DNA from: Caenibius tardaugens NBRC 16725
GTDB lineage: Bacteria > Pseudomonadota > Alphaproteobacteria > Sphingomonadales > Sphingomonadaceae
DNA length: 64,000 bases
Reading direction: 5' to 3'
NCBI RefSeq assembly: GCF_003860345.1
Contig: NZ_CP034179.1
Location: 2,898,001-2,962,000 of the forward strand
Numbering within the stretch: position 1 is the stretch's first letter; the number at the start of each line of letters is the position of its first letter. The notes below the pieces were generated by a model. That model was not told the origin of the DNA. It saw only the letters and a program-made list of their open reading frames with translations, and ran no database searches. Made by a program: the position numbers and the translations under genes. Below are positions 3,097 to 58,827 of the stretch, piece by piece.

Positions 3097-3112
3097 TTGA
3101 GTGTTTGCTTAC
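3097..3112. promoter_or_regulatory. Operator-like motif, copy 1
   Basis: TTGAGT-GTTT-GCTTAC matches the window's recurrent GTGAGT-N4-RCTTAY motif. It lies upstream of the minus-strand gene 2312-2986 and downstream of 3146-3796. This is the most diverged left half-site of the five copies. Confidence 0.5.
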
Positions 3113-3145
3113 AAGTCCGATAGGGCTAGATTTGGCCCGATTGGG

Positions 3146-3796
3146 TTATCCCGAACCCTTGCCGTCGTTGGCCGCCATCCGGCGCTCCCGTTCGCGCGCG
3201 GCGTCACCGCTCAACCGCACGGCGATGGCTTTGCCTTTCACGCGGGGGCGGTCTGCCTCCATTTCGCGCAAGGGTTCGGTGGGGATCATGTCGGTCAACG
3301 CTTCGCGGGCCAGGCGCTGGTATTCCCCTGCGCCGTCGTTTTTCCAGGTAACCTGATGCGCCTCGAACGTGCGGACCACTTTGGCCGGATTGCCGACCAC
3401 AAGGCTGCGCGGCGGAATGACGACATCGGATTTGACCAGCGAGAGGGCCGCGACAAGGCATTCGTCCCCGATCTGGGCATTATCCAGAATAACCGCATTC
3501 ATGCCAATCAGCGCGTTTTCGCCAATTTCGCAGCCATGAATGATGGCGCCATGCGCGATGGTTGCCCCGCGCCGGATGATTGTGTCGCGCAATGAGGAGA
3601 CGTGGACCGTGGTGGAATCCTGTATGCTGGTATCCCCTTCCACGATGATACGCCCAAAATCGCCGCGCAGCGATGCACCCGGGGCGATGAAGCAGCCCGG
3701 CCCGACAATTACATCGCCGATCAGCGAGGCAAGTGGATGCACGTAGCTGGTCGGGTGAACGACAGGCACGATGCCCTGAAAGGCGTAGCATGACAT
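3146..3796 (-). CDS. Gamma-carbonic-anhydrase/PaaY-CaiE-like hexapeptide-repeat protein
   Basis: Left-handed beta-helix protein of 216 residues. From about residue 15 it has serial hexapeptide turns (HPLASLIGDVIVGPGC, ASLRGDFGRIIVEG, NALIGMNAVI) and the His residues in ATIAHGAIIHGC that bind metal in the gamma-carbonic-anhydrase family. PaaY and CaiE relatives are CoA-thioester hydrolases or accessory proteins in acyl-CoA pathways, so a housekeeping role towards stalled CoA thioesters is plausible here (inference). The ATG at 3796 is chosen because the family begins MxxYxFxG; an in-frame extension to 3844 would add a non-homologous stretch. It is divergent from the isomerase gene at 3976. Confidence 0.85.
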   Translation of the reverse strand: MSCYAFQGIVPVVHPTSYVHPLASLIGDVIVGPGCFIAPGASLRGDFGRIIVEGDTSIQDSTTVHVSSLRDTIIRRGATIAHGAIIHGCEIGENALIGMNAVILDNAQIGDECLVAALSLVKSDVVIPPRSLVVGNPAKVVRTFEAHQVTWKNDGAGEYQRLAREALTDMIPTEPLREMEADRPRVKGKAIAVRLSGDAARERERRMAANDGKGSG

Positions 3797-3975
3797 GGGG
3801 GCGTATTCTCCGTTCGGCGCGGGTAGAGCGCATGTGCAGGCCATCAGCCCTGCTGCATGATTTCAGAAATCCGATGCCCCTATTGGTTGCCAAGTGCAAG
3901 CATTGCTGCGGCAGTCACGATGCTTTCCATTGTGTTGTGGCCTGCAGGCAGGACTTGGGTTAGGGCCGGGGCACT

Positions 3976-4788
3976 ATGCTGTCACTTTCGCTTGATCATA
4001 TCACCGTGGTGGACACCACGCCTGTCCAGCTTGCCGAAGCCGCACATGCGGCCGGTTGTCGCGGTATCTGCCTGTTTATGCAGCCGATGGACGTTCTGCC
4101 GCATTTGCCGCAGTTCGACATCTACGAGGATCGTGCCGCGCGCAAGGCATTGGGGGAACGGCTGCGGGAACTGGATGTGGTTCTCGATCTTGCCTATCCC
4201 TTCACGCTGGCCGGGCGGACAGAGGTGGAGCATTTCAAGACCGCGATGGAATGCGCAGCAGAACTCGATGCGCAACTGCTGAACGCGCTGGTTTACGATC
4301 GCGATCCGGCCCGTCGGCAGGACAAGTTCGGTCAATTTTGCGATCTGGCGGCCAGCTTCGGCCTGCCTGTTGGGGTGGAATTCTATCCCCCGTCACAAGT
4401 GCGCTCGCTGGCCGATGCGCTCGAACTGGTGCAAGCGGTCAATCGGCCCGGACGGGTCGGGGTCAATGTCGACCTGTTGCATCTCATGCGTTCGGGCGGC
4501 ACGATCGCAGAACTCGCCGCGGCACCGGCGGATTTCATTCTCTACGGTCAGTTCTGCGACGGGGCGGAAAGCTGCCCGGAAGACCAGATCGATGTGGAAG
4601 CATCGTCGCATCGCCTGCTGGCGGGCGAGGGGGTGTTTGATATCGCGGGCTTCGCGCGAGCTTTGCCGGACAATTGCCCGGTCAGCGTAGAACTGCCGCG
4701 TAACGATGCGCTGGAAGCCGGTGTGCCCGTGGTAGAACGGGTGCGGCTGGCCGTGGACAGCGTGCGCAGGGCGATCGCCGCCGGTTGA
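3976..4788 (+). CDS. Sugar-phosphate isomerase/epimerase-family TIM barrel protein
   Basis: This 270-residue protein belongs to the xylose-isomerase-like/AP endonuclease 2 barrel family. Visible hallmarks are an N-terminal LSLDHITVVDTTPVQLAEAA strand-helix, acidic metal-ligand candidates at strand ends (GVEFYPPSQ, NVDLLHLMRSGG, SVELPR) and a conserved HLMRSGG turn. Members isomerise or epimerise sugar-like polyols, or act on ring-opened intermediates; the substrate cannot be told. It is a single gene, divergent from the hexapeptide protein and convergent with the aldo/keto reductase, with a strong shared terminator downstream. Confidence 0.8.
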   Translation: MLSLSLDHITVVDTTPVQLAEAAHAAGCRGICLFMQPMDVLPHLPQFDIYEDRAARKALGERLRELDVVLDLAYPFTLAGRTEVEHFKTAMECAAELDAQLLNALVYDRDPARRQDKFGQFCDLAASFGLPVGVEFYPPSQVRSLADALELVQAVNRPGRVGVNVDLLHLMRSGGTIAELAAAPADFILYGQFCDGAESCPEDQIDVEASSHRLLAGEGVFDIAGFARALPDNCPVSVELPRNDALEAGVPVVERVRLAVDSVRRAIAAG

Positions 4789-4813
4789 TAGACCGGGCAG
4801 GCGAGCACACGAA

Positions 4814-4847
4814 AAAGGCGGGAGCCGCAACACGCGGTCCCGCCTTT
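4814..4847. terminator. Bidirectional terminator
   Basis: The stem AAAGGCGGGA/TCCCGCCTTT, extended inward by CCGC/GCGG, lies between the convergent genes ending at 4788 (plus) and 4868 (minus). A run of five A's on the left and a T-rich right side suit both directions. Confidence 0.85.
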
Positions 4848-9331: not shown

Positions 9332-9340
9332 GTTAAATGA

Positions 9341-10394: not shown

Positions 10395-11336
10395 TCAAGC
10401 GTTCGCCGCAGCAGCCAGACGGCGCTGTGCCAGCAGTTCGCCCGTGGCCTTGGCGGCCGCGGTCATGATGTCGAGATTGCCCGAATAGCTGGGCAGGTAA
10501 TCGCCTGCGCCTTCCACTTCGAGCATGATCATCGTCTTGATGCCGGTGAACTCGCCCATGCCGGGGATCTTCAGCTTGTTGTTGTCGCCAAAGCGTTCAA
10601 ACTGCACTTCCTGCTTCAGACGGTAGCCGGGGACGTACTTCTGCACTTCGGCCGCCATCTCCTTGACCGACTGGCGGATCGCTTCTTCGTCCGCGCCTTC
10701 CGACAGCGTGAAGACCGTATCGCGCATGATCATCGGCGGTTCGGCAGGGTTCAAAATGATGATCGCCTTGCCCTTGGTCGCGCCGCCGACCTTTTCGATG
10801 GCATTGGCCGTGGTGCGGGTGAACTCGTCGATATTGGCACGCGTGCCCGGCCCTGCCGAACGCGAGGACACCGAAGCGACGATTTCTGCGTAGTGGACCT
10901 TGGCCACGCGGCTGACGGCCGCGACCATCGGGATCGTCGCCTGCCCGCCGCAAGTCACCATGTTGACGTTGGGCGCATCGAGGTTCTCGGTCATGTTGAC
11001 CGGCGGAATGGTGAAGGGGCCAATCGCGGCAGGCGTCAGGTCGACCACCTGAATGCCATCGGCGCGCAGCGCCTCGTCATGAACCTTGTGGGCATAGGCG
11101 CTGGTCGCATCGAAGGCGATCCCGATTTCAGGATAGACCGACAGCTTCTTCAGCCCCTCGATCCCTTCATGCGTCGTCGCAATCCCGTGCGAACGCGCCA
11201 TCGCCAGACCTTCGCTCGCCTCGTCAATCCCAACAACCGCAACCAGTTCCATATTCTGCGGGTTCTTGATCATCTTCATCATCAAATCGGTGCCAATGTT
11301 GCCCGACCCGATAATCGCTGCCTTCACTCGTGACAT
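10395..11336 (-). CDS. hsaG: Acylating propanal/acetaldehyde dehydrogenase (HsaG)
   Basis: NAD- and CoA-dependent aldehyde dehydrogenase of 313 residues that turns the aldehyde from HsaF into propionyl-CoA or acetyl-CoA. The Rossmann motif [15 protein letters not shown] begins near residue 6, and the catalytic Cys is in [14 protein letters not shown]. The ATG at 11336 ([10 protein letters not shown]) matches the family start; six upstream in-frame codons are not needed. Length and motifs fit the DmpF/BphJ/HsaG family, which binds the aldolase and receives aldehyde by channelling. It lies between hsaE and hsaF on the minus strand. Confidence 0.95.
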
Positions 11337-11360
11337 CAGTGTTTCCTTACACAAACGGGC

Positions 11361-37962: not shown

Positions 37963-38274
37963 ACATCTCCCCTTTGTCGCCTCTTTGGGCGTTTCAATGA
38001 AGGGGCGGCATGCGCGATGTTCGCGAACGTCCTGCTATGACGACGGCGCCAAATATAGGCCGTTCTCTTCCTCCCCCACACCGGTATGTGCTAAAGCAAA
38101 CTGGGTTGAGGTCAAGGCGCAGGTCTCTGTGGTTACTTGCATTTATGTGGCCACCGAAGACAATCCGTTTCCAATGGCGATCAATATTTGCTTGCCTTCC
38201 TCTTTGTACTGAACAGGACTTCGGGGCGATTGCCGTTGCCGCCGTCACCGTTCGCGACGGCGGCCCCGATGCTG
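37963..38274. other. Intergenic region, 312 bases
   Basis: Lies between the TonB receptor start and the esterase end, both on the minus strand, so it should hold the receptor promoter. It contains a 10-bp palindrome GTTCGCGAAC (38019-38028), 57 bases upstream of the receptor ATG, and a 9-bp hairpin GCCGCCGTC/GACGGCGGC (38238-38264) just past the esterase stop with no U-tract. No credible gene is seen. Confidence 0.5.
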
Positions 38275-39368: not shown

Positions 39369-39384
39369 GTAAGCAAATACTGAC
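39369..39384. promoter_or_regulatory. Operator-like motif, copy 2
   Basis: GTAAGC-AAAT-ACTGAC; read on the minus strand it is GTCAGT-ATTT-GCTTAC, matching the GTGAGT-N4-RCTTAY consensus. It sits about 100 bases upstream of the minus-strand esterase ATG and 23 bases beyond the stop of the Coq4-like gene. Confidence 0.6.
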
Positions 39385-45504: not shown

Positions 45505-45635
45505 GTCGCACTTTCGCAGCCTGCACGGCAAGCGGCATAAGGTGCCAAGGCGGACACAAAAGCGGCCATCACCTTGCACCGCCCCAAGCCGCAAGTTAGC
45601 CATCACCTCATATATTGCATGGAGGAGATCCCGGG

Positions 45636-46437: not shown

Positions 46438-46447
46438 GTTACGTAAC
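46438..46447. promoter_or_regulatory. 10-bp palindrome upstream of the FAD monooxygenase
   Basis: GTTACGTAAC is a perfect palindrome 77 bases upstream of the monooxygenase start, in a 117-base gap. It is an operator candidate only; a 10-bp palindrome can occur by chance. Confidence 0.3.
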
Positions 46448-46523
46448 CCTATCGGGTGATGTGGGCAGGCGCAGACTGTGCGACTGCCCACCATCAGAAC
46501 AGTAACGGGAACGAGGTTTGGAT

Positions 46524-48002
46524 ATGTCCTCTGTGAATAACGGGTCAGAACGCAAGTTGCGCTATGCGGTGATCGGGGCCGGCATGGCCGGTGTGCTCGC
46601 GGCCATCAGGCTGAAGCAGCGTGGCGAAGACTTCACCGTCTATGAAAAAGCGGCGCGTCTGGGCGGCACATGGCGTGAAAACCGCTATCCGGGCCTGACG
46701 TGCGACGTGCCTGCCCATGCCTACACCTACAGCTTCGAACCCTATCCGGAGTGGAGGGCGTTCTATGCCGATGGCGGTGAAATCCAGACCTATTTCGAGA
46801 AGACGGCAGAAAAGTACGGCGTGACGCCGCATATCCGTTTCAACAGCGAAGTCGTTTCTACCGCGTGGGACGATGAACGGCAGGTCTGGAAGCTGGGCTT
46901 GATTGGCGGTGAACAGGTCGAGGTCGACGTCGTGATCGCGGCATCGGGCGTGCTGCACCATGTTAATGTGCCGGATATTCCCGGTCTCGACACCTTTGAA
47001 GGCCATGCGTTCCATACCGCCCGTTGGGATGATGACGCCCGGATCGATGGCGCGAAGGTGGGTCTGGTCGGTTGTGGTTCCACCGGTATCCAGATTGTCA
47101 CGGCACTGGCCGACAAGGTGGAGAAGCTGGTCCACTTCCAGCGTTCGCCGCAGTGGATCATGCCGGTCGAACAGTTTGCCTATTCGGATGCAGACCGCGA
47201 AGCCTTCCGCAATGACCCTGCGCTGATGGATGCGATCCGCTTCAGCGATGAATATATCGGCAATGTCCGCCGCTTCACTGACGGTATCACCGACTTCAAC
47301 AGCCCCGAGATCAAGGCGGTGCAGGATCTGTGCGAACAGTATCTCAATGCCAAGATCACCGATCCGGAACTGCGGGCGAAGCTGACGCCGAATTATCAGG
47401 CGGCGTGCAAGCGGCTGGTCTATTCCTGGTGCTATTACGATGAAGTGCAGAAGCCTTCGGTCTATGTCGAAACGGGCGGTATCGAACGGGTCGAACCGAA
47501 AGGCGTGCGGATGAAGGACGGCACGTTCCACGAACTCGACACGCTGATCCTTGCAACGGGTTTCAAGGCGGATCGCTTTATCCGTCCGACCACGGTGCTG
47601 GGCGAAGGCGGCCGTTCGCTGGACGATGCCTGGGCCACGCGCCCGACGGCCTATTATGCCGTGACAATCCCGGAATTCCCCAATTTCTTCATGCTCAACG
47701 GGCCAACCGGGCCAGTGGGCAACTTCTCGCTTATCGATATTGCTGAACGCCAGTGGGACTATATCGAGCAGTTGCTCGACCTGATCCGCAAGGGTGAGGC
47801 GAAGGCTGTCGCGCCGAGCGCGGCCGCACACGAAGATTACGAGGAACGGCGTATCGCCGCAGCCAAGAAGACGATTTTCGGTTCGGGTTGTTCGAGCTGG
47901 TACCTCGATGCCACGGGCGTTCCGGCAAGCTGGCCGTGGAGCTACGACGCCTTTGCCGAAGCCATGGCAGCGCCGAAGATGGCCGATTACGTCATCAGCT
48001 AG
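46524..48002 (+). CDS. Flavin-containing Baeyer-Villiger-type monooxygenase
   Basis: FAD/NADPH monooxygenase of 492 residues. First dinucleotide motif GAGMAG at 18-23; GGTWRENRYPGLTCDVPAHAY follows. The type I Baeyer-Villiger fingerprint FxGxxxHTxxW is matched by FEGHAFHTARWD at 158-169, and the NADPH motif is VGLVGCGSTGIQ. It lacks the N-terminal extension of its paralogue at 56851. It would insert oxygen next to a ketone, giving an ester or lactone. ATG 46524 has AGG eight bases upstream. A strong terminator follows. Confidence 0.9.
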   Translation: MSSVNNGSERKLRYAVIGAGMAGVLAAIRLKQRGEDFTVYEKAARLGGTWRENRYPGLTCDVPAHAYTYSFEPYPEWRAFYADGGEIQTYFEKTAEKYGVTPHIRFNSEVVSTAWDDERQVWKLGLIGGEQVEVDVVIAASGVLHHVNVPDIPGLDTFEGHAFHTARWDDDARIDGAKVGLVGCGSTGIQIVTALADKVEKLVHFQRSPQWIMPVEQFAYSDADREAFRNDPALMDAIRFSDEYIGNVRRFTDGITDFNSPEIKAVQDLCEQYLNAKITDPELRAKLTPNYQAACKRLVYSWCYYDEVQKPSVYVETGGIERVEPKGVRMKDGTFHELDTLILATGFKADRFIRPTTVLGEGGRSLDDAWATRPTAYYAVTIPEFPNFFMLNGPTGPVGNFSLIDIAERQWDYIEQLLDLIRKGEAKAVAPSAAAHEDYEERRIAAAKKTIFGSGCSSWYLDATGVPASWPWSYDAFAEAMAAPKMADYVIS

Positions 48003-48030
48003 GCACGGTTGTCTGATATCTGTTGGAGAA

Positions 48031-48057
48031 GGGCGGGCCCGCAGGCTCGCCCTTTTT
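48031..48057. terminator. Terminator between the monooxygenase and TetR genes
   Basis: GGGCGGGCC and GGCTCGCCC form a 9-bp stem (one G-U pair) with a CGCA loop, followed by TTTTT. It sits between the convergent stops at 48002 and 48057. Confidence 0.85.
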
Positions 48058-48710
48058 CATGCGTCGATATAGCGCGCGATGACGTCGTCGGTCAGCCCGA
48101 TGCCCCGGCAACAGAACCATAGGGCATCCATCGCCAAATCCTCGTTATCGGAATCGTAAGGCCGCGACGCGGGGGCCAGGGCGCGGATCGCGCTGATCAT
48201 GGTGCCCACATGTTCGATGAACATCGCGGTGTTGGCGACGCTCAGCGGCTTTCCGGTAATTTCGCCGCTTTCGCGCGCATTTTTGTGCGCTTCACCCACT
48301 TTTTTCGCGTTGAGACGCTGGGAACGGCGATAGATCAGACTGGCATAGTTTCCATCACCGGCAAGGCTGGCCAGTGTCATGCGAAAACGTTGTTCCTGGT
48401 CTTCTTCCGCTTCCGCGATGACAGTACGGAAATAGGTCTTGAGCGTGCGGATCAGGCCTGCCGCATTCGTTTCCTGCAGGCCGAGCAATTGATAATGATC
48501 GTCCTGTTCCTTGAAGACCTGACGCATGACCGCGCGATAGAGCGCGAGCTTCGAAGGGAAATGGCGATAGACGAGCGCTTCCGAGACATTTGCTTCACGC
48601 GCGATCTGCAGCGTCTTTGCGCCTTCATATCCGTATTGCGAGAACACGCGCCGCGCCGCCGCGAGGATCAGCGTGCGGCGTTCCGGGCCAGATATGCGCT
48701 TTCGTGTCAT
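48057..48710 (-). CDS. TetR-family regulator, candidate master of the GTGAGT-N4-RCTTAY regulon
   Basis: A 217-residue TetR protein. The DNA-binding domain is ERRTLILAAARRVFSQYGYEGAKTLQIAREANVSEALVYRHFPSK (about residues 10-55). The C-terminal ligand domain ends CRGIGLTDDVIARYIDA. A perfect 16-bp palindrome, ATAAGT-GCTT-ACTTAT, overlaps its start codon (48709-48724), implying autorepression. Four related sites occur upstream of an esterase, a monooxygenase/TonB-receptor pair, an oxidoreductase/esterase-SDR pair and an unidentified gene. I infer that this regulator controls them; the ligand is unknown. Confidence 0.92.
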   Translation of the reverse strand: MTRKRISGPERRTLILAAARRVFSQYGYEGAKTLQIAREANVSEALVYRHFPSKLALYRAVMRQVFKEQDDHYQLLGLQETNAAGLIRTLKTYFRTVIAEAEEDQEQRFRMTLASLAGDGNYASLIYRRSQRLNAKKVGEAHKNARESGEITGKPLSVANTAMFIEHVGTMISAIRALAPASRPYDSDNEDLAMDALWFCCRGIGLTDDVIARYIDA

Positions 48711-48724
48711 AAGTGCTTACTTAT
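48709..48724. promoter_or_regulatory. Operator-like motif, copy 3 (perfect palindrome, TetR autoregulation)
   Basis: ATAAGT-GCTT-ACTTAT is the only perfectly symmetric copy of the motif family and overlaps the ATG (48708-48710) of the minus-strand TetR gene by two bases. Confidence 0.75.
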
Positions 48725-48845
48725 GAACAAATGAGGTCGTGTCAATTTTCTTTCCCCGAAGCATGCACGTATTTCCGGGAAAAATCGGGGGTGTGCGCGG
48801 CGAAGTCAGTGCGCTGGATATCCGGTGCAACTTACTTTCTATCGA

Positions 48846-49934
48846 TCATGCCCCTGTCGATGCGAGAATGCTGACCAATTGTGATTGGCGGCGTGCACCG
48901 GTTTTGGCAAAAATTGCGCGAAGCTGGGTTTTCGCGGTGTTGTGGGTGATCCCCAGTTTCTGCGCGGCCTCCACCAGGGACAGCCCCTGCGTAAGTGTGA
49001 CCGCCAGCCGCGCTTCCGCCATGGTCAGGCCAAACAGTTCGCGGACAGTTTGCGGCTGCAACTGCGTTTCTTCGCCGGGAAGCGCGAGAAACAGCGCCAG
49101 AGCCCCGGTGCCCGAATGGATGGCGGGCAGGTTCATCGCGCGGGCTGAGGCGATCAGATCGCCGCGATCCGCCCGTTCGATGCGAAACCGGGTGACTTTG
49201 GCCTGTGCCTGCGGGCTGGCCAGCAGGTCGGCAATGATCTTGCGCGGTTCGGCATTGTCGAACGCCAGCGTGTCACCCGCGCGGCGCACGCCTTCACCTT
49301 CATCAAGGAAGCGTTCGGCCAGCGCATTGCTGGAAACGATGCGATTGTTGCGGTCGAGGACGAGCAGCGCCAGACCAAGCCCTTCTGTCGCGCTTTCGAA
49401 CACACCATGTTCTGCGCCCGCCAGTTGCAGCTTCTCGAACAGGCCGACGGCAATCCGCAAATGCGGTACCAACGCTTGCAAGGCGTTACGGTCCGAGGCG
49501 GTGAAATCGGGCAGGGACTTGTCGCGCGAGACACGGAAACGGGCTTCGAACTGGCTGGCGAAGCGCATGTCCACGGCCAGCACCTGTTCGCCGCCCGCCA
49601 CGTCGAGATAGTCGCGATAGGCGGCGTATTCTTCCATCGCCATCTGGCTGATGAATTCCGTGAACGAGGTGACCTTACCATCGGGCAGATCCTTGAACGG
49701 ATCGACGGCGAAAAAGGATTCGAGATAGCGGGCCTGAAACACCGGGTCGGCGCCGGGGGTCACGTACGTGCCCGGGATATGTGTACCCGGGGCCGTGATG
49801 ATCAGCGTGGAAAAGGTGGAATCGAGCCAGGTGGCCAGTGCCTTGAGAAAGGCTTCCCATGGCCGTTCGCCAGTAAGGTCGCCGTAAAGGCGAACAAGCA
49901 ATTCAGAGAATTGGGGATCGACACGCTGGTCCAT
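48846..49934 (-). CDS. LuxR-type regulator with PAS-like sensor (TeiR-reminiscent)
   Basis: A 362-residue regulator. The C-terminal LuxR helix-turn-helix is FGLTMAEARLAVTLTQGLSLVEAAQKLGITHNTAKTQLRAIFAKTGARRQSQLVSIL. A PAS-like stretch precedes it (GLALLVLDRNNRIVSSNALAERFLDEGEGV, residues about 190-220), and the N-terminus (RLYGDLTGERPWEAFLKAL) is typical of this soluble family. TeiR, a testosterone-inducible activator of Comamonas, has the same layout, so this could activate the steroid operons (inference). ATG 49934 is chosen over an in-frame TTG two codons upstream; no strong Shine-Dalgarno is seen. Downstream of the luciferase-family gene on the same strand. Confidence 0.88.
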   Translation of the reverse strand: MDQRVDPQFSELLVRLYGDLTGERPWEAFLKALATWLDSTFSTLIITAPGTHIPGTYVTPGADPVFQARYLESFFAVDPFKDLPDGKVTSFTEFISQMAMEEYAAYRDYLDVAGGEQVLAVDMRFASQFEARFRVSRDKSLPDFTASDRNALQALVPHLRIAVGLFEKLQLAGAEHGVFESATEGLGLALLVLDRNNRIVSSNALAERFLDEGEGVRRAGDTLAFDNAEPRKIIADLLASPQAQAKVTRFRIERADRGDLIASARAMNLPAIHSGTGALALFLALPGEETQLQPQTVRELFGLTMAEARLAVTLTQGLSLVEAAQKLGITHNTAKTQLRAIFAKTGARRQSQLVSILASTGA

Positions 49935-49963
49935 CCCCAACCCATAGACATAAATCAGGGCAT

Positions 49964-51124
49964 TCAGCCAGCCACAGTTTCAACCTGCTTCGCAGCGGCC
50001 TGATTGCGGAAGTGCGGAATGACCTTCTCGCCGATGTTGCGGATCGTTTCCATGATCACGTCGTGCGGAATACCGCCCATCTGGAACATGAACAGGATTT
50101 CGTCGGCACCGGCATCGATCAGGCGCTGCACATAACGGATGCAGTCGTCCGGCGTGCCGTAGGCGTCCTGTGCGATGTTGTAGTTCGACAAGTGTTCGTC
50201 ACCCACCGGAATGGCTTCTTCCGACAGGTAAGCAATGGTCTGCTGCTTTTCCTTGTCGAGGATCGCCGCCTGTTCGTCGCCCGAAAGGTTTTCGTCGATC
50301 GTCGGCTTGGGGCCGCCCTGATACCAGTAGGCGATCGATTCAGCGAAGAAGCGCTGGCCGCGCAGGCCGATCTTGCGGGCCTTTTCGCGGTCGTCGAGCA
50401 CGGTCGCAGCGCAAAGCGCGGCAAGGTGTTCGGTCGGGCGGAAGCCGACCTGATCTTCGGGCTTACGATTGCGATAGGCTTCGCGATAGATCGCGTTCTT
50501 CTTGGCGATTTCTTCGGGGCCCGAGAAACCGAGAACCAGCGCGCCAATGCCGCGTTCGCCAGCGGCGACCAGCGTGTGCTCGCGGGTGCAGGCCATGTAC
50601 ATCGGCGGATGCGGATCCTGATAGGGGCTGGGGTGGATCGGGCGCTTCGGGATCTTCACATACGTGCCGTCATGCTCGATCTCGTCCTGCACCATGATCT
50701 TGGGGATCAGGTACATGCTTTCGTCGATCATCGGCTGCAGTTCTTCGAGGTTGTAGCCGAAGGTGCCGGCTTCCTGCTGCGTGCCGCCTTTGCCGACGCC
50801 GAAGTGCAAACGGCCCTTCGACAGGATGTCGAGCGTGGCAATGCGTTCTGCAACTTTCACCGGATGGTTCATGGCCGGCGGCAGGCAGACCACGCCGTGG
50901 CCGACGTGAATGCGGCTGGTTGCGCCGGCGATGAAAGCCAGCACGGTTTCCGGGGCCGACATGTGCGCATACTGGGTCAGCGCGGTGTGTTCGACGCACC
51001 AGATGCAGTCGAAGCCCATTTCTTCGGCATATTTCGCCTGGTCGACGATCTGATGGAAAACAGCCTGTTCATTTTCGCGCGAGGTATCGACCATCTGCGC
51101 TTCATAAATGATGGAAAACTTCAT
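49964..51124 (-). CDS. Luciferase-like (LLM-class) flavin-dependent monooxygenase
   Basis: A 386-residue TIM-barrel flavoenzyme. Bacterial-luciferase hallmarks: MGFDCIWCVEHTALTQYAH near residue 38, TSRIHVGHGVVCLPPAMNHPVKVAERIATLDILSKGRLHFGVGKGG, and the C-terminal GTPDDCIRYVQRLIDAGADEILF. These enzymes use reduced flavin to oxygenate aldehydes, ketones or alkanes; some are type II Baeyer-Villiger monooxygenases. The start at 51124 is supported by GGGAGAG upstream. No flavin reductase gene is adjacent. Likely co-transcribed with the LuxR-type regulator 29 bases downstream. Confidence 0.9.
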   Translation of the reverse strand: MKFSIIYEAQMVDTSRENEQAVFHQIVDQAKYAEEMGFDCIWCVEHTALTQYAHMSAPETVLAFIAGATSRIHVGHGVVCLPPAMNHPVKVAERIATLDILSKGRLHFGVGKGGTQQEAGTFGYNLEELQPMIDESMYLIPKIMVQDEIEHDGTYVKIPKRPIHPSPYQDPHPPMYMACTREHTLVAAGERGIGALVLGFSGPEEIAKKNAIYREAYRNRKPEDQVGFRPTEHLAALCAATVLDDREKARKIGLRGQRFFAESIAYWYQGGPKPTIDENLSGDEQAAILDKEKQQTIAYLSEEAIPVGDEHLSNYNIAQDAYGTPDDCIRYVQRLIDAGADEILFMFQMGGIPHDVIMETIRNIGEKVIPHFRNQAAAKQVETVAG

Positions 51125-51269
51125 TCGCTTCTCTCCCGAGCTCAAAGGCCTGAAACTGGACGCGGATGTTATTCCTCTGCCACCCCCGCACATCACCCAA
51201 ATGGGTTAAGCGCGGAGGCGGCGGAAAATTTTCACCGTTTGGCGGAAAATCGACAGTTTTCAGCCATTA

Positions 51270-52265
51270 TCACCCCTGTGTATCGAGCGCGGCATCGACT
51301 TCGAGGAGAATTTTTCCGCGAACATGGCCGTCCTGCACTCGCCGGTGGGCTTCGCTCGCCTGATCCAGTGGGAGAATCGTGTATTCGGGTGTCCTGATGC
51401 CGCCATCGGCGAGCGCTTCCACCAGTGCGCGCAATTGCCGGGGCTGGTTGGGGAAAGTCGACACGGTCGGGATCACCGTCACGCCCGCGGCCTCGGCTTT
51501 CGCCGGATCGATCGTGCGTTCTTCGGGGATCAGCGTGCCGATCGGTGCCACGATCCCGCCGCGCCGCATTACATCGACCACATCGACGAAAGTGCCCTGA
51601 CCGACAGTGTCGACCACCACGTCCACCCCTTCGGGCGCCCAGTCGCGGATTTGCGCATAGACATCGCCTTCGCGGTAATTGATGGCCCGTTCCGCACCCA
51701 GCGATGCGACATAGGCAGAGTTGTTCGGGCTGCATGTCGCGGCCACACGTGCGCCCGCCAGTCGCGCGATCTGGATTGCGAAACTGCCCGTGCCCCCTGC
51801 GCCGCCGTTGACGATCACCGTCTTGCCAGTGGCCGCCTGACCCACGTCGATGGTCGCTTCCCAGGCGGTCATGCCCGCAGTCGGCAAGGTGGCGGCATCG
51901 CGCAGGCTGACATGATCGGGCAGCCGGACCACCCGTTCCGCTGCGGCGCGGACATATTCGGCGTAGGAACCGCGTTCGCCCATGCCCTGGTTGCCCGGTG
52001 TCACCACCCGGTCGCCCACGGCCAGCCCTTCCACCCCTTCGCCCACTTCGGCGACGATTCCTGCTGCGTCAAAACCCACGACGAACGGGAATTCGTAATC
52101 GAAATAGCGGGACAGCCAGCCTTCGCGCGCTTTCCAGTCTGCCGGGTTCACACTGGCATAGGCCACCTGCACCACGACATTGCCGGGGGTCGCCGCCGGG
52201 CGTGCGATTTCGTCCATGTGCATGACTTCGGGGCCGCCAAATGCGTCCAGAACCATTGCTCTCAC
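51270..52265 (-). CDS. Zinc-free MDR oxidoreductase (quinone oxidoreductase-like), GTG start
   Basis: Medium-chain NADPH oxidoreductase of 331 residues. VLDAFGGPEVMHMDEIARPA at the N-terminus, VGFDAAGIVAEVGEGVEGLAVGDRV, and the Rossmann motif VIVNGGAGGTGSFAIQIARLAG with no zinc-binding Cys set indicate a quinone-oxidoreductase or enoyl-reductase type. The start is a GTG (52265): AGGAG lies 10 bases before it, whereas the next ATG (52256) is too far from any Shine-Dalgarno. The reverse frame stays open far upstream, but that extension is antisense to other genes. An operator-like motif lies 53 bases upstream. Confidence 0.9.
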   Translation of the reverse strand: MRAMVLDAFGGPEVMHMDEIARPAATPGNVVVQVAYASVNPADWKAREGWLSRYFDYEFPFVVGFDAAGIVAEVGEGVEGLAVGDRVVTPGNQGMGERGSYAEYVRAAAERVVRLPDHVSLRDAATLPTAGMTAWEATIDVGQAATGKTVIVNGGAGGTGSFAIQIARLAGARVAATCSPNNSAYVASLGAERAINYREGDVYAQIRDWAPEGVDVVVDTVGQGTFVDVVDVMRRGGIVAPIGTLIPEERTIDPAKAEAAGVTVIPTVSTFPNQPRQLRALVEALADGGIRTPEYTILPLDQASEAHRRVQDGHVRGKILLEVDAALDTQG

Positions 52266-52317
52266 TGTCTGATCACTCCTCTTCCTCGTTGACCATGGGT
52301 CTACGGGGGCTATCAAA

Positions 52318-52333
52318 GTGAGTAAACGCTTAT
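52318..52333. promoter_or_regulatory. Operator-like motif, copy 4
   Basis: GTGAGT-AAAC-GCTTAT sits in the 195-base divergent region between the MDR oxidoreductase (start 52265, minus) and the esterase-SDR-SDR operon (start 52461, plus), so one site could control both. Confidence 0.65.
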
Positions 52334-52460
52334 TAAGAGTTGCTGCGAGGCGGGCTTGGCTATAATTGCGTTCCAAATTGTCATGGAAGTGTGCGCCGCG
52401 ATTCATCGGGCGTGCCCTGTGCCGGACAAACACAAAACGACGGAATGAGGAGACCGAAGG

Positions 52461-53396
52461 ATGCCGATTGACCCGCAGATTGAGGCGATGCTTGCCAATG
52501 CGCCGCCGTGGCCCGGGGTGCGTGCCATTCCGCTGGATATGCTGCGTCAATCGGTGCGGGACAGTTCGGTGGCCATTCCTCCGGCACAGGACGCAGTGGT
52601 CGCCGATGTGGAAGATCGCACGATTACAGGGCCGGGCGGGGATCTTGCCCTGCGACTTTACACGCCGCAGGGTGACGGGCCGTTCCCGGTCACGCTGTAC
52701 ATGCACGGTGGCGGGTTCGTGGTGGGCGATCTCGATACGCAAGACATGATTGCCCGCGCGCTCTGTGCATGGGGCGAAACGCTGGTGGTGTCGGTCGACT
52801 ATCGCCTTGCGCCGGAACACCCGTTCCCTGCCGCGCCGGACGATTGCTGGGCCGCGTTGCAGTGGGCCGCAGCTCATGCGGCGGACCTGGGCGGCGATGC
52901 CACGCGCCTGTCCGTGGCGGGCGACAGCGCCGGGGGCAATCTCGCCGCGTCTGTCGCGCTGCGGGCACGGGATGCGGGAGGGCCTGCCTTGCGCGCACTC
53001 GTGAACATCTACGGGTCGTGCAACTATCCTTCGGACGATACGCCATCTTCGCGCGAATTTGCCGATGGCCCCATTCTTCAGCGTGATGATGTCGACTGGT
53101 TCTGGGAACAGTTCCTCTCCGATCCGTCGCAGCAGGACGATCCGCTGGCATCCCCTTCGCGGGCGGCCAGCCATGCTGGCTTGCCGCCGACGTTCGTGGG
53201 AACCGCCGAATGCGATCCGTCGCGCGATGATGCCGAAAACTTTGCCGCCAAAGTGGCCGGGGCGGGCGTGGAAGTGCAGCAGAAACGCTATCCCGGCATG
53301 GTTCACGGCTTCGCGTCGTGGGTCGGGTTTCTGCCCGGCGCGCGCGACGTCCTGCAGGACGCGGCGGCATTTCTGAAAACACACAACGCCGCGTGA
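52461..53396 (+). CDS. Alpha/beta hydrolase, HSL-type esterase
   Basis: HSL-family esterase of 311 residues with a complete triad: oxyanion HGGGFVVGD (about residue 77), nucleophile Ser in VAGDSAGGNLAAS, Asp in TAECDPSRDDA and His in GMVHGFASW. VDYRLAPEHPFPAAPDD is the conserved block shared with the esterase at 38275. It heads a three-gene operon with two SDRs and lies opposite the MDR oxidoreductase, a set suited to hydrolysing a Baeyer-Villiger ester and oxidising the alcohol released (inference). Confidence 0.92.
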   Translation: MPIDPQIEAMLANAPPWPGVRAIPLDMLRQSVRDSSVAIPPAQDAVVADVEDRTITGPGGDLALRLYTPQGDGPFPVTLYMHGGGFVVGDLDTQDMIARALCAWGETLVVSVDYRLAPEHPFPAAPDDCWAALQWAAAHAADLGGDATRLSVAGDSAGGNLAASVALRARDAGGPALRALVNIYGSCNYPSDDTPSSREFADGPILQRDDVDWFWEQFLSDPSQQDDPLASPSRAASHAGLPPTFVGTAECDPSRDDAENFAAKVAGAGVEVQQKRYPGMVHGFASWVGFLPGARDVLQDAAAFLKTHNAA

Positions 53397-53432
53397 ACGG
53401 CGGCGATTGACAGCAAGAGAGGAGAAGGGTGC

Positions 53433-54377
53433 ATGAGCACGCTCAATTTTGATGGAAAAGTTGCGATTGTCACCGGTGCCGGTGGCGGTCTGGGCAAGGA
53501 ATACGCCAGCCTTCTGGCTGCACGCGGGGCGAAAGTTCTGGTGAACGATCTGGGGGGCAACTTCACCGGGGAAGGGGCGGACACCGACTATGCCGCCGCC
53601 GCTGCGGAGGAGATCCGTTCCAAGGGAGGCATCGCCGAAGCGAATACGCAGAGCGTGGCGACATCGGCCAGTGCGAAGGCGATCGTGGCCGATGCCATGC
53701 AACGCTGGGGCCGGGTGGATATCCTCGTCAACAATGCCGGGATCGTCAGCGGCGGCGGGCCGCTGGAAACGCTGACCGACGACCAGTGGGACAAGGACAT
53801 TTCCGTCGCCGCCAGCGGCACCTTCTATCTGTGTCGCGAAGTCTGGTCGCAGATGAAGGCCAACGATTATGGCCGGATCGTCAACGTCTGTTCGGGGTCG
53901 TGGTTCGGCATGGGATCGGGCGTGCCCTATCCCGCGGCCAAGGGCGCGGTCTGGGCAATCACCCGCTGCCTCGGGTCGGCCAGCGCGGCCAATGGCTGGA
54001 ACATTCGCACCAATTGTATCATGCCGATTGCCGGAAGCCGGATGACCGAGCTGATGGGCCCGGAAATCAACGCGTTGATGCACCGTGATTTTCCGCCGCG
54101 TTCGGTCGCCCCGGTGGTGGCCATGCTCGCCCATGAAGACGCGCCCTGCAATGGCGAAATGTTCACGGTCGGCGGCGGCGGCTATGCGCGCGTGTTTGCC
54201 GGTGTGACAGCCGGATACCGCGCCACTGACAAGGATTGGACGATCGAGGATGCCATGGCCAATTTCGACCAGGCCTTCAGCACCGACCAGTTCGAAATCC
54301 CGAAAGATTCGATGGACGATGCCGGGATGTACACGTCCGATGTGCCGTGGCCGTTGTTCCGCCAGTTTATCGCCTGA
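53433..54377 (+). CDS. Short-chain dehydrogenase, hydroxyacyl-CoA/17-beta-HSD4-like
   Basis: SDR of 314 residues with a long C-terminal tail. VTGAGGGLGKEYASLLAARG at about 13-32, VLVNDLGGNFTGEGADTDYA with an insertion typical of the multifunctional-enzyme type, LVNNAGIVSGGG, VCSGSWFGMGSGVPYPAAKG (Ser, Tyr and Lys present). The paralogue at 26105 shares the VNDLG signature. NAD preference is suggested by the Asp at the end of beta-2. It follows the esterase by 36 bases and precedes the next SDR by 15. Confidence 0.88.
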   Translation: MSTLNFDGKVAIVTGAGGGLGKEYASLLAARGAKVLVNDLGGNFTGEGADTDYAAAAAEEIRSKGGIAEANTQSVATSASAKAIVADAMQRWGRVDILVNNAGIVSGGGPLETLTDDQWDKDISVAASGTFYLCREVWSQMKANDYGRIVNVCSGSWFGMGSGVPYPAAKGAVWAITRCLGSASAANGWNIRTNCIMPIAGSRMTELMGPEINALMHRDFPPRSVAPVVAMLAHEDAPCNGEMFTVGGGGYARVFAGVTAGYRATDKDWTIEDAMANFDQAFSTDQFEIPKDSMDDAGMYTSDVPWPLFRQFIA

Positions 54378-54392
54378 TCGACAAGGAAAAGC

Positions 54393-55211
54393 ATGATGGG
54401 AAGAGTAGAAGGCAAGGTCGCCATCGTGACCGGTGCTGGCCGTGAAGGCAATATCGGGGTGGCCGTGTGCCGCGCCCTGTTGCGCGAAGGGGCAAAGGCC
54501 GTGATCGGCACCGATATGCGGGCGGATCAGGCGCAGGCGATCAGCGATAGTGTGGCCGCAGACGGCCATGCCGGGGCGTTCCGGCTGGTGCAGCAGGATG
54601 TGACCAGCGAGGCAGACTGGCAACGGGTGATCGGCGATACGGTGGCGCAGTTCGGCCAGCTGGACGTGCTGGTCAACAATGCGGGGCTGTCGATCCATGG
54701 CGGTGTGCTGAACACATCGCTGGAAGATCTGCGCACGGTCATGGCGGTCAATCACGATGCGCTGTTCCTGGGCATCAAATATGCCACACCGCATCTCGCA
54801 TCGGCGGTGGAGCGGTTTGAAGGCGGTGGATCGATCATCAACAATCTGTCGATGGCGTCGTACATGCCCAATGCGAACAATATCGGTTATCACGTGTCGA
54901 AATCGGCGGGTCGGATGCTGACGATCTGCGCCGCGCAGGAACTGGGCAGCAAGCGCATCCGGGTGAACTCGATCCATCCGGGGATGACCATGACCCCGAT
55001 CCTGCGCGAAGGGTTCGAGGACTATGTCCGGCAGGGCTTGTGGGAATCGACCGAGGCGGCGGAAGCCGCGCTGGCCGCCATGGGGCCGCTGGGTATTTCC
55101 AGCCAGCCGGAGGACACCGCGCATGCCTTTGTCTATCTGGCATCGGATGAATCCCGCTTCATGACTGGGGCGTCGATCTATCACGACGGGGCGATCGGCC
55201 TGCGTTATTGA
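54393..55211 (+). CDS. Short-chain dehydrogenase, hydroxysteroid-type
   Basis: SDR of 272 residues: GRVEGKVAIVTGAGREGNIGVAV at the N-terminus, with a TGAGREGNIG variant of the cofactor loop. DMRADQAQAI, VLVNNAGLSIHGG, NNLSMASYMPNANNIGYHVSK (catalytic Ser, Tyr and Lys) and FMTGASIYHDGAIGLRY follow. The family includes 3-alpha(20-beta)- and other hydroxysteroid dehydrogenases, but cyclohexanol-type substrates are also common. Two adjacent ATGs (54393, 54396) may start it. Last gene of the esterase operon. Confidence 0.9.
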   Translation: MMGRVEGKVAIVTGAGREGNIGVAVCRALLREGAKAVIGTDMRADQAQAISDSVAADGHAGAFRLVQQDVTSEADWQRVIGDTVAQFGQLDVLVNNAGLSIHGGVLNTSLEDLRTVMAVNHDALFLGIKYATPHLASAVERFEGGGSIINNLSMASYMPNANNIGYHVSKSAGRMLTICAAQELGSKRIRVNSIHPGMTMTPILREGFEDYVRQGLWESTEAAEAALAAMGPLGISSQPEDTAHAFVYLASDESRFMTGASIYHDGAIGLRY

Positions 55212-55777
55212 TGCGATGCCATGGCGTGGCGGGGTGCTGATGGCACCGCGCCGCGCCCGTCCGGGGTGACACAGAACGGCCCGATAACGCGCGCATGGCC
55301 AGCGGCATATGCGCGGCCTGCGGGCGCGCGCGCCAGTATCGCGGCCGGGGGAAGCCCTTGGACCGGTGGGGGATTTCGATCCAGCCTTTGTCCGGCACGG
55401 TTGGGCTGATGGTCGAGGGTGCCGGTGCAGCATGTGTAACCTTCCGGGACGGTACCATGCTACCACTTGGCCGCGTCTGACCCCATGGGGTGGCGCAAGG
55501 GTTGAAAATGACGCTTTTTTGCGGTCCATCGCATAGCTTAAGGCAGGTTTTGCCGCTGTAGGAAAGCGTGGCGGCGCGGCCTGCGCAGGCGTGATCGGGC
55601 GACATTTACGCATGGCGGGGCGTTCGTCCCGCCAGAAGCACGGGCCGTTTTGCTCTTTGCGGCCATACCGTGAATGCTAAGCTGCCATTCAGATTTCGCG
55701 GGGCAGGTCACCGCGATGATGCGTTAACCCCCGCATGACCGCTCCGGTCGTGATGCAGCCAGCGGAAGCGATCGTTT
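55212..55777. other. Intergenic region, 566 bases
   Basis: The longest gene-free stretch. Short open frames are present, including a 61-codon one (55295-55480) with a single CAAC pair, but none has a Shine-Dalgarno plus recognisable protein features. No terminator with a clear U-tract was found after the SDR gene; the promoter of the TonB-like gene is presumably in the A/T-richer part near 55660-55780. Confidence 0.5.
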
Positions 55778-56698
55778 TTGTACACCCCTGATTATTCCTC
55801 CTTCAATCGTTCGCCAGATGGCGGGCGGGGAATGTTCGGGCGCCGTGTGATCGGGATCACGCTATCGGTCCTGATTCAGGGGCTGTTCCTTCTTCTGATG
55901 CTCAGTCTTGGGCAGGTGCAGGCGGTGCTGCCGGACAAAGTGCCTGCCCTGTCGACATTCACGGCCAGCGCCGAACAGGAAGAACAGCAGAAGCAGGAAG
56001 AGCAGGTAGAGAAGAAGGAACCGGAAAAGCAGGAGGAGGCGGAGAAGGAGAAAGAGCCTGAACCCGAGCCGGAGCCTGAACCGGAACCCGAGCCGCAACC
56101 GAAGCAGCCCGAAACGAAACCGTCGCCCAGTCCACAACCGAAACCGCGCCCGGCGCAGCCCACGCCCGCCCCGCGCCCCGATCCCGAGCCGAAACCATCG
56201 CTGGCCAGTATCCTGCAACTGACGCCCGAACAGGCACCCGCTGCGGACAGTTCGGGCGCACTGGCCGGGCCACCCGCGCCTGCCGCAGCGGCTGCCCCTG
56301 CGGCGCCTGCCACGGGCGCCGGGGCGGGTGATGGGCAGGCGGTGGGGGCGGCCAATGCGGGTGGTCCGCCCGATACGCCGCGTACGGGCAGCGTCGCGCC
56401 CAACGGTCAGCCGCTTTATGCCGCATCGTGGTACCGCCAGCCGACGCAGGCGGAATGGTTGCGGTATCTGGCGCCGGCAAAAGGGCAGGGGTCAGCGGTG
56501 ATCGCGTGCCGCACGCGGCCGCAGTACCGCGTCGACAAGTGCGTTGTGGTGAGCGAGACCCCCGGCGGGACCAATATCGGCCGGGCGGCGGTGTCCGCAT
56601 CATCCCATTTTCTCGTGCGGCCCCCATCGCTGCAGGGCAAGCCGGTGATCGGCAAATGGGTCCGTATTCGCATCGATTACGCCGCCCGGCCGCAATAG
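55778..56698 (+). CDS. TonB-like periplasm-spanning protein with Glu/Lys/Pro-rich linker
   Basis: A 306-residue protein with the layout of an energy transducer. It has an N-terminal membrane anchor (GITLSVLIQGLFLLLMLSLG, about residues 27-46), an acidic/basic stretch, a (Glu-Pro)n run near residues 95-108, and a Pro/Lys-rich then Ala/Gly-rich linker that could span the periplasm. The small C-terminal domain from about 205 (LYAASWYRQPTQAEWLRYL to YAARPQ) does not show the classic TonB YP motif, so it may be a divergent TonB or another envelope linker. TTG 55778 or ATG 55832 may be the start. Confidence 0.75.
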   Translation: MYTPDYSSFNRSPDGGRGMFGRRVIGITLSVLIQGLFLLLMLSLGQVQAVLPDKVPALSTFTASAEQEEQQKQEEQVEKKEPEKQEEAEKEKEPEPEPEPEPEPEPQPKQPETKPSPSPQPKPRPAQPTPAPRPDPEPKPSLASILQLTPEQAPAADSSGALAGPPAPAAAAAPAAPATGAGAGDGQAVGAANAGGPPDTPRTGSVAPNGQPLYAASWYRQPTQAEWLRYLAPAKGQGSAVIACRTRPQYRVDKCVVVSETPGGTNIGRAAVSASSHFLVRPPSLQGKPVIGKWVRIRIDYAARPQ

Positions 56699-56771
56699 GC
56701 GGTTGGTCGGAAACGCATCGGCACCGGAACGCCCGAGGCAAAACGGGCGGATGCCATCAGGCCAGAATCGA

Positions 56772-56807
56772 AAACGGCCGCTCCGGTGATGCGGGGAACG
56801 GCCGTTT
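56772..56807. terminator. Bidirectional hairpin terminator
   Basis: AAACGGCCG and CGGCCGTTT form a 9-bp perfect stem with an 18-base loop, between the convergent genes ending at 56698 (plus) and 56851 (minus). The A- and T-rich stem ends give short U-tracts in both directions. Confidence 0.7.
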
Positions 56808-56850
56808 CCTTTGGTGAGGAGGGCGCACACCGTGCACCCCGCCCACATGC

Positions 56851-58782
56851 CTATTTGTGCAGGTCGTAGCTGCCTTCCGCCGGGCGGCGGGTTTCGGTGA
56901 AGAAATCCACCAGACGCCACGGCCATGACAGGAATACGCGGCCCTTGGAATTGTTGTAGTAACTGTTGGCGCCGGGATGGGTCCAGATCATCTCGGGCAT
57001 CCGTTCCTCGACCTTGCGGTTCCAGGCGTCATAGGCGTCCTGTTTTACTTCGAAGGCCTTGGCATCGGCTTCCACGATCCGGTCGAGTGCTTCGATAATC
57101 CAGTTCACCTGACATTCGGAAATCATGTTCTGGCCGGCGGCGTGGTTGGGGGCGCTGTTGGGGCCGACCGTGTGGAAGTAGTTGGGATAGCCCGGAATGC
57201 ACATGCCCATATAGGACCGGGCATCGTCTTCACCCCATTCTTCACCCAGATCGCGGCCGCCGACGCCCTTGATCGTCAGATTGCCGATCATTTTTGCGAC
57301 GTTGAACCCGGTGGCGCAGACGATGATGTCGCATTCGTAGAAAGTGCCGTCCTTACCTTCCACGCCATTGGGCAGGATGCGTGCGATACCGCCCGTTTCC
57401 AGATGCACATTGTCGCGCGCCAGCGCGTCGAGCCAGCCATTGTCGAGGATGATGCGCTTGGAGAAAATCGGGAAATCCGGGGTGAGCTTCTCGATGATGT
57501 CCGGGCGATCGGCCATGCGTGCATGGAGATGGGACAGCGCATATTGCCGGATGCCTTCGTTGGCGGCGGAAACGGCCAGACTGTTGCCTTCCCATTCCGG
57601 ATCTTTCAGCACGTTGCTGAACAGCCCGTCGGCCGCATTCCAGTACACGCGGAAGCGGAACCATTCGAGATAGGTGGGGATGTGGGTCAGGGCCCACTTC
57701 ATCCCTTCGCTCACATCATCGGCGATTTCGGGATTGGACAGCACCCAATGCTTCGTACGTTGATAGACGTTCAGGCTGGCGACTTTGGGGGCGATCGCGC
57801 CCACCAGCTGCGCGGAGCTGGCGCCTGTGCCGATCACGGCCACGCGTTTGCCGGTTACATCGAGATCGGCCGGCCAGTTGGCGGTGTGCACCACCGGGCC
57901 ATCGAAATCGTTGAGGCCGGGAATATCGGGCCAGCGGAAACGATTGACCGGACCGTGGCCGTTGATCACCGCATTGGCCACGATATCTTCATGCGAACCA
58001 TCGGGGTTGCGCACGGTCACAGTCCAGGTGCCGGACTTGTCGTCATAGACCAGCGTTTCGACCGCCGTGCCGAAGCGCATGTTTTCACGCAGCTTATACT
58101 TGTCGGCGACCGCCAGCATGTAGCGCTGCATATCGGCACCCTGCGGGTGATAATGCGTCCAGTCCGGCCAGATTTCCCAGCTGAAGCTGTAGAAGTGGCT
58201 GGGCGTGTCGACACCGACGCCGGGGTAGCGGTTTTCATACCAGGTGCCGCCGACATCGCTGTTCTTTTCGATCACGACATAGTCGTAACCGGCTTCGCGC
58301 AGTTTGGTGGCAGCGGCCATGCCGGTGAGCCCGGCGCCGATGACGAGAACCTTGAAATTCGCGGGCGGCTTGCGGCGACCTTCCACTTGCGAACGATCGA
58401 TCCACGGGCGGAAACCGCACTGGTCGAATACGGCGTCGATGAATTCGTCTTCCACCGCTTCGCCCACGGTCACCGACATGATGCGCTGGATCAGGGCATC
58501 GGAAGGTGCATCCTTGTGCAGGCCTTCGCCGGTGGTCAGCAGATGCCGCATCTTGCCGCGCAGTTCTTCGGCCAGATCATCGGGGATGACTGTGATTTCG
58601 CCGGAAAACGCAGGCTTGATGTGCGGTGCAAAGCGATCCAGCAGCGCGAAATCGCGTGACAGATGCGCATAGGCGGCGAGCAATGTCTGCACATTGGCTT
58701 CTGCCAGCGCCCGGGACAGTTCGGCACTGTCGGGCAAAGGCAGGGAATCCATGGCGCGCGCAAGCTTTTCGTTAGTGGACAT
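56851..58782 (-). CDS. Type I Baeyer-Villiger monooxygenase, HAPMO/large type
   Basis: A 643-residue FAD/NADPH monooxygenase with a 140-residue N-terminal extension like 4-hydroxyacetophenone monooxygenase. First Rossmann motif GAGLTG at 149-154, GGTWYENRYPGVGVDTPSHFY, the Baeyer-Villiger fingerprint FDGPVVHTANWP at 293-304, and the NADPH motif GTGASS at 318-323. It would convert a ketone to an ester or lactone. ATG 58782 has GGGAG upstream. Divergent from a TonB receptor gene, with operator-like copy 5 30 bases upstream of the ATG, linking uptake and oxygenation. Confidence 0.93.
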   Translation of the reverse strand: MSTNEKLARAMDSLPLPDSAELSRALAEANVQTLLAAYAHLSRDFALLDRFAPHIKPAFSGEITVIPDDLAEELRGKMRHLLTTGEGLHKDAPSDALIQRIMSVTVGEAVEDEFIDAVFDQCGFRPWIDRSQVEGRRKPPANFKVLVIGAGLTGMAAATKLREAGYDYVVIEKNSDVGGTWYENRYPGVGVDTPSHFYSFSWEIWPDWTHYHPQGADMQRYMLAVADKYKLRENMRFGTAVETLVYDDKSGTWTVTVRNPDGSHEDIVANAVINGHGPVNRFRWPDIPGLNDFDGPVVHTANWPADLDVTGKRVAVIGTGASSAQLVGAIAPKVASLNVYQRTKHWVLSNPEIADDVSEGMKWALTHIPTYLEWFRFRVYWNAADGLFSNVLKDPEWEGNSLAVSAANEGIRQYALSHLHARMADRPDIIEKLTPDFPIFSKRIILDNGWLDALARDNVHLETGGIARILPNGVEGKDGTFYECDIIVCATGFNVAKMIGNLTIKGVGGRDLGEEWGEDDARSYMGMCIPGYPNYFHTVGPNSAPNHAAGQNMISECQVNWIIEALDRIVEADAKAFEVKQDAYDAWNRKVEERMPEMIWTHPGANSYYNNSKGRVFLSWPWRLVDFFTETRRPAEGSYDLHK

Positions 58783-58811
58783 CACGTCTCCCGAATCTGT
58801 CCGTTGTAATT

Positions 58812-58827
58812 GTGAGTATTCACTTAC
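58812..58827. promoter_or_regulatory. Operator-like motif, copy 5
   Basis: GTGAGT-ATTC-ACTTAC, five of six half-site positions symmetric, lies 30 bases upstream of the Baeyer-Villiger monooxygenase ATG and about 205 bases upstream of the divergent TonB receptor. Confidence 0.7.

Follow-up and report, generated by a model that had tools for sequence, protein, structure and literature searches.

Five palindromic sites as putative operators of a TetR-type regulon interleaved with the progesterone degradation genes of Caenibius tardaugens

Here we describe five dispersed copies of a 16-bp palindrome in a 64,000-nucleotide stretch of the Caenibius tardaugens NBRC 16725 genome (contig NZ_CP034179.1, positions 2,898,001 to 2,962,000; this whole stretch is called the window, and positions are counted from its first letter). 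Judging from sequence, these sites are genuine rather than products of chance, and they are likely to be operators of the TetR-family repressor EGO55_13850 (48057–48710, minus strand), which would control its own gene and a set of uptake, Baeyer-Villiger monooxygenase (BVMO), esterase and dehydrogenase genes; its binding, repression and ligand we infer. TetR would act as a dimer on the palindrome GTRAGT-N4-ACTYAC, located either within target promoters or across start codons, and would hold these genes and its own silent until a pathway ligand (a ketone, ester or alcohol) releases it. The predicted targets are BVMO2 with a divergent TonB-dependent receptor gene, the divergent MDR oxidoreductase and esterase-2/SDR/SDR units, esterase-1 and a gene at 2312, and this set would cover uptake, Baeyer-Villiger oxygenation, ester hydrolysis and alcohol oxidation. 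A TetR regulon had been put forward in a preliminary description of the window; with these targets named, the proposal is supported by recurrence of the site at orthologous promoters, by co-occurrence of TetR and BVMO2 across genomes and by a near-invariant recognition helix.

The site at 48709–48724 (ATAAGTGCTTACTTAT) lies over the TetR start codon, pointing to autoregulation, and rests on both matrix score and conservation. That at 58812–58827 (GTGAGTATTCACTTAC) is located between BVMO2 and the TonB receptor gene, its centre 37 bp before the BVMO2 start, and that at 52318–52333 (GTGAGTAAACGCTTAT) between the divergent MDR oxidoreductase and esterase-2 genes. The remaining two are found upstream of esterase-1 (39369–39384, GTAAGCAAATACTGAC, motif on the minus strand) and about 120 bp upstream of the 2312 gene (3097–3112, TTGAGTGTTTGCTTAC); as features, the sites are listed without strand. 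The preliminary description had placed all five 16-mers correctly, as the letters of the window confirm, and had called them all intergenic, which holds as well: given conserved gene starts, each lies between genes or over a start codon. The automatic caller chose a TTG start at 58899 and so placed the 58812 site inside an open reading frame (ORF), whereas homologues align from 58782. The pattern first proposed, GTGAGT-N4-RCTTAY, fits two of the five sites exactly, the other three requiring one, one and two changes, and the "perfect palindrome" reported at 48709 is perfect in its arms (ATAAGT/ACTTAT) but not in its centre.

The strongest evidence comes from promoters outside the window. We applied a symmetric matrix, built from the five window sites only, to 250-bp stretches preceding homologues of genes in the window: 198 regions, taken from 17 other genomes or plasmids (regions were counted, so that a site between divergent genes may count twice). 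We found 31 matches scoring at least 12 and 14 scoring at least 18, compared with means of 2.55 and 0.03 for 60 permuted symmetric matrices, whose largest counts were 22 and 1. By gene, a site was present upstream of 8 of 8 homologues of BVMO2, 5 of 7 of the MDR gene, 9 of 19 of TetR, 3 of 7 of esterase-2 and 1 of 5 of esterase-1. Two of three homologues of an epimerase-like gene also had one, both shared with a divergent BVMO2 or MDR gene, and the two matches among homologues of steroid-cluster genes likewise both faced a divergent BVMO2 or MDR gene. No site was seen in the same 250 bp for homologues of BVMO1 (0/4), the LuxR-type regulator (0/3), OYE (0/5) or the SDR at 45615 (0/10).

BVMO2 gave the most consistent picture. 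Among 25 BVMO2 homologues of family genomes, in whose selection only three candidates per genome were scored, the site was found in 10 of the 11 that are at least 58% identical (a count that takes in the BVMO2 of the window itself), in 0 of 1 at 57% and in 1 of 13 at 54% or less. Site centres fell between −26 and −39 from the start, and one genome, G318, carries two sites in the stretch between TonB receptor and BVMO2, the second at −149. Strong sites found by pattern also precede BVMO homologues in G272 (52% identity), G319 (36%) and G371 (61% over part of the protein). Among plasmid promoters fetched later, 6 of 6 sphingomonad BVMO2 promoters scored at least 16.2, while no TetR-type site was found in two Rhodococcus BVMO2 controls or in eight LLM/BVMO1 promoters (LLM being the luciferase-like monooxygenase discussed below). 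As a background to this set, random 365-bp stretches of TetR neighbourhoods, true sites included, scored at least 12 in 2.2% of 3000 draws. The esterase-1 site has a counterpart at the corresponding intergenic position in G061, and also in G133, where esterase-1 itself is missing; the site of the 2312 gene keeps its distance in G189 and G118, the 2 of 16 other homologues that score at least 12, and a weaker match (10.5) is present in G133. Conservation at orthologous promoters is thus supported most firmly for BVMO2, for MDR/esterase-2 and for the TetR start, and is thinner for esterase-1 and the 2312 gene.

The pattern alone says less. In the window, the pattern first proposed occurs 11 times with up to two changes, against 5.1 expected, and 2 of 100 shuffles reach 11, a marginal excess. 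Leave-one-out matrix scores of the five sites are 16.3–20.5, the next matches in the window being those at 11335 (16.3) and 38180 (11.1). The genome, a single contig of 4,358,096 bases, was scanned by patterns with mismatches, and the matches were then scored by the matrix. RTRAGT-N4-RCTTAY occurs exactly at three places in the 4.36 Mb, all in the window and within 10.1 kb; since the pattern was derived from the window, this clustering is circular if taken alone. With up to one change it occurs at 29 places, five of them in the window, and a reversed control pattern is the commoner of the two genome-wide (40/39 strand matches versus 17/17), which shows no enrichment for this class of pattern as a whole. 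Of the 26 places examined, six score at least 15, namely the five sites and one at 539999; the other 20 are weaker, 9 being intergenic and 11 in predicted coding DNA. A looser pattern search (106 forward and 106 reverse matches) yielded, among the matches listed, 15 hand-picked ones for scoring, none of which exceeded 16.0. Under loose settings, then, the pattern is not enriched genome-wide and is marginal in the window, which is what one would see if the five sites were chance matches from a long sequence; given their recurrence at orthologous promoters, in sequences that took no part in building the matrix, we regard that explanation as practically negligible.

The regulator itself has the properties of its family. 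Its helix-turn-helix matches TetR_N (PF00440) with 61.8 bits (Pfam cut-off 24; residues 15–61), its predicted structure (pLDDT 84) has the all-helical TetR fold, and Foldseek matches include RutR, HapR and NicR2, with E values from 9.6e-6. The helix-turn-helix segment SEALVYRHF is nearly invariant in 16 TetR homologues that are 41–84% identical to the window's protein. TetR orthologues (E 1e-25) were found in 12 of 397 family genomes and BVMO2 (at least 57% identity) in 11 of 394, and 10 genomes are common to both (Fisher 3e-17, on an approximate table, as the two draws were nearly equal and not identical). The strict palindrome GTRAGT-N4-ACTYAC is present in 9 of the 12 TetR genomes versus 11 of 382 others (hand count). 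Matrix sites occur both at the TetR gene's own promoter and at target promoters, and a site scoring at least 12 lies over the TetR start, or a few bases from it, in eight records: C. tardaugens, G061, G118, G318, G295, pNL2, ES2-1 and THN1. Since this site overlies the start, with TTGAC preceding it in 8 of 10 TetR starts compared, the TetR message probably has almost no leader, and the expected −10 region would lie under a bound dimer.

Several observations count against our reading. One permuted matrix came to as many as 22 matches at 12 or more. Neither of two homologues of the TonB receptor gene (58921) has a site within 250 bp of its start, and the 2312-gene homologue in G061 lacks one. 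The selection of BVMO2 homologues was narrow, as stated, and those without a site are a second copy in G189 (62%), the one in G371 at 57% and 12 of the 13 at 54% or less. Finally, two BVMO promoters of G189 bear sites, yet a search of this genome at E 1e-8, in which 24 of 24 candidates were scored, found no TetR (the assembly is a draft of 340 contigs), and a second TetR paralogue stands beside BVMO2 in pNL2, ES2-1 and THN1. These last two points would fit true operators that belong to another TetR-type protein, with EGO55_13850 binding some of them or none. We consider this unlikely: C. tardaugens has no close second TetR copy (the next match is 37% over residues 8–77; 70 of 70 candidates scored), and the start-codon site of the TetR gene recurs in seven other records.

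G189, which is of the same genus, keeps sites at its two BVMO promoters and at the 2312 gene (contigs C62, C7 and C319). The Novosphingobium plasmids pNL2, ES2-1 p1 and pTHN carry two TetR paralogues each, of which the one that is not next to BVMO2 has its own start-codon site; a duplication of the circuit is a possible origin of these pairs.

As targets of EGO55_13850, the genes behind the five sites would make chemical sense, and the coherent uptake, oxygenation, hydrolysis and oxidation set seen in the preliminary description stands as a series: a TonB receptor, a BVMO that would turn a ketone into an ester, two esterases and SDR/MDR dehydrogenases. BVMO2 (56851–58782, minus strand) is a type I Baeyer-Villiger-type monooxygenase of 643 aa with an N-terminal extension, and its nearest solved structures are phenylacetone monooxygenase and steroid monooxygenase. 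The TonB-dependent receptor is encoded at 58921–61464 (plus strand, start codon as called). The zinc-type MDR oxidoreductase EGO55_13865 occupies 51270–52265 (minus strand, likely ATG at 52256), and opposite it lie esterase-2 (52461–53396), a hormone-sensitive-lipase-like Abhydrolase_3 protein that reaches 340 bits against the NCBIfam LipP1 cut-off of 350, and two SDR dehydrogenases (53433–54377 and 54393–55211), all on the plus strand. Esterase-1 (38275–39270, minus strand) is also hormone-sensitive-lipase-like, with an NCBIfam score just under cut-off. The protein of 2312–2986 (minus strand), formerly described as unidentified, indeed has no Pfam match up to E 5; its model (pLDDT 88) has a predicted VOC/glyoxalase-like fold, for which the matches are weak and none reaches E 0.001, and the earlier label can be corrected to that extent. 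This protein was found in 13 of 387 family genomes searched.

The TetR gene is embedded in a known locus. Genes at 46518–51196 have the BVMO-TetR-LuxR-LLM order of the published progesterone degradation cluster (pdc) of C. tardaugens, 12.8 kb from the steroid (SD) cluster (PMC12239570). From this order we assigned the tags EGO55_13845 to BVMO1, a progesterone monooxygenase (46524–48002, plus strand), EGO55_13850 to TetR, EGO55_13855 to the LuxR-type regulator (48846–49940, minus strand), EGO55_13860 to LLM, a luciferase-like progesterone monooxygenase (49964–51124, minus strand, start at 51124 inferred from homologues), and EGO55_13865 to MDR. In the 2025 study of pdc, TetR was suggested as a possible repressor of the cluster on the basis of its family and of expression (PMC12239570). 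In that study, which lists 36 differential genes, progesterone versus testosterone cultures raised BVMO1 139-fold and LLM 32-fold; the MDR gene stayed below 30 transcripts per million and unchanged, and the TetR gene was likewise unchanged (PMC12239570). The low and unchanged MDR gene and the unchanged TetR gene make it seem that progesterone does not switch on the TetR regulon, as far as expression of these two genes goes, and as the control culture was grown on testosterone, a ligand present in both would have gone unnoticed.

Direct repression of BVMO1 and LLM by TetR, with the dispersed sites secondary, would agree with the position of the TetR gene between the two, with the published proposal drawn from family and expression (PMC12239570) and with a TetR-type site 93 bp before LLM in G118. 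The window, however, has no TetR-type operator at the BVMO1 or LLM promoter; none was found at 4 of 4 BVMO1 homologues or at 8 of 8 LLM/BVMO1 promoters fetched later, and the site in G118 is one in three LLM homologues. Moreover, the operator-bearing MDR gene and the TetR gene are unchanged on progesterone, whereas BVMO1 and LLM rise 139- and 32-fold (PMC12239570), and the latter two have a different palindrome in common. Because BVMO1 and LLM lack the TetR operator and share this other palindrome, TetR probably does not directly repress these monooxygenases in C. tardaugens, and we hold the direct model to be very improbable. Instead, the evidence supports a TetR regulon that is distinct from the progesterone-inducible pdc genes flanking its regulator, a point that the preliminary description did not contain.

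The second palindrome is found at 46445–46463 (plus strand, AACCCTATCGGGTGATGTG), its centre about 72 bp before BVMO1, and at 51189–51207 (minus strand, AACCCATTTGGGTGATGTG), its centre about 76 bp ahead of 51124, the likely start of LLM. The two promoters share AACCC-N4-GGGTGATGTG, and the conserved form is AACCC-N4-GGGTKATG. In the genome, AMCCC-N4-GGGTKATGYG occurs exactly at three places, two of which are these copies. The palindrome is also present upstream of BVMO1 in G061, G133, G118 and pNL2, and of LLM in G061, G133, G189 and G118. A matrix built from the two window copies (background 95th percentile 10.2, 99th 14.1) scored 11.5–19.0 in all eight of the LLM/BVMO1 promoters fetched later, five above the 99th percentile and three weak, and at most 9.1 in eight BVMO2 promoters fetched later. 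In pNL2, ES2-1, S. herbicidovorans and TomTYG65 the gene next to LLM encodes a LuxR or helix-turn-helix regulator, which makes EGO55_13855 a better candidate than TetR for control through the second palindrome, its binding being putative. We lean towards two interleaved regulons with unrelated palindromes at the pdc locus: a TetR-repressed uptake/BVMO2/esterase module not switched on by progesterone, and BVMO1 and LLM driven by the LuxR-type EGO55_13855 through AACCC-N4-GGGTKATG; TetR would respond to a ketone or ester that several sphingomonad genera use, perhaps a different steroid.

In G118 the LLM promoter bears both motifs, the TetR-type site (2595–2610 of locus L052, at −93) and the second palindrome, so the two circuits may touch in some species. 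Other matches to the second motif looked at in the genome (2810816, 2054432 and 3061215) were set aside, as they lie inside predicted ORFs. In 20 kb round a Dabb gene taken, by family and rough position, as EGO55_04230 of another progesterone-induced cluster, no second-motif match exceeded 13.0; TetR-type matches of 14.5, 12.6 and 12.9 occur in that stretch, not upstream of that gene set.

KstR, the TetR regulator of cholesterol catabolism, shares family and domain with EGO55_13850, which scores 27.3 bits on the KstR NCBIfam model, far under its cut-off of 280. EthR and EthA of mycobacteria likewise pair a TetR-type repressor with a Baeyer-Villiger monooxygenase, there as one gene pair without dispersed operons. 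In the same strain, EdcR is also a TetR repressor of a steroid (oestrogen) pathway; its predicted palindromic operators overlap promoters and are conserved in A. estronivorus (PMC8700777). EdcR is another gene, EGO55_13520, and its operator TnnCnnTACnAnTnGTAnnGnnA differs, by eye, from GTRAGT-N4-ACTYAC (PMC8700777). The pdc study covers the same genes, including TetR EGO55_13850, whereas the operator found here marks genes other than the two progesterone-induced monooxygenases, and the words operator and palindrome are absent from the text of that article (PMC12239570). A literature search, which covered few subscription journals, returned no description of GTRAGT-N4-ACTYAC as an operator. Our analysis thus supplies a candidate operator and target list for a regulator left open in 2025 (PMC12239570), indicates an uncharacterised BVMO-esterase pathway, and predicts that TetR acts without direct control of the progesterone monooxygenases, which would correct the published suggestion and can be tested, C. 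tardaugens being tractable, with gene deletions and gfp reporters published. The two promoter/regulator pairs could also be tried out as biosensor parts.

A few further matches deserve mention. A sigma-70 scan of 48500–59100 found two promoters versus 2.6 expected and is uninformative. The match at 11335–11350 (16.3) was rejected as an operator: it overlies the start of an hsaG-like gene, is absent in 2 of 2 homologues scanned and is probably due to chance, so that the earlier remark that no copy was found in the hsa/ipd operons holds but for this match. The weaker TetR-type match at 38180–38195 (11.1) is upstream of another TonB receptor gene (35293–37962). The only strong TetR-type site found outside the window in this genome, at 539999–540014, lies about 50 bp upstream of a BVMO-type gene that is 33% identical to BVMO2; a distant TetR-like gene close to it (27% identity) may be its regulator.

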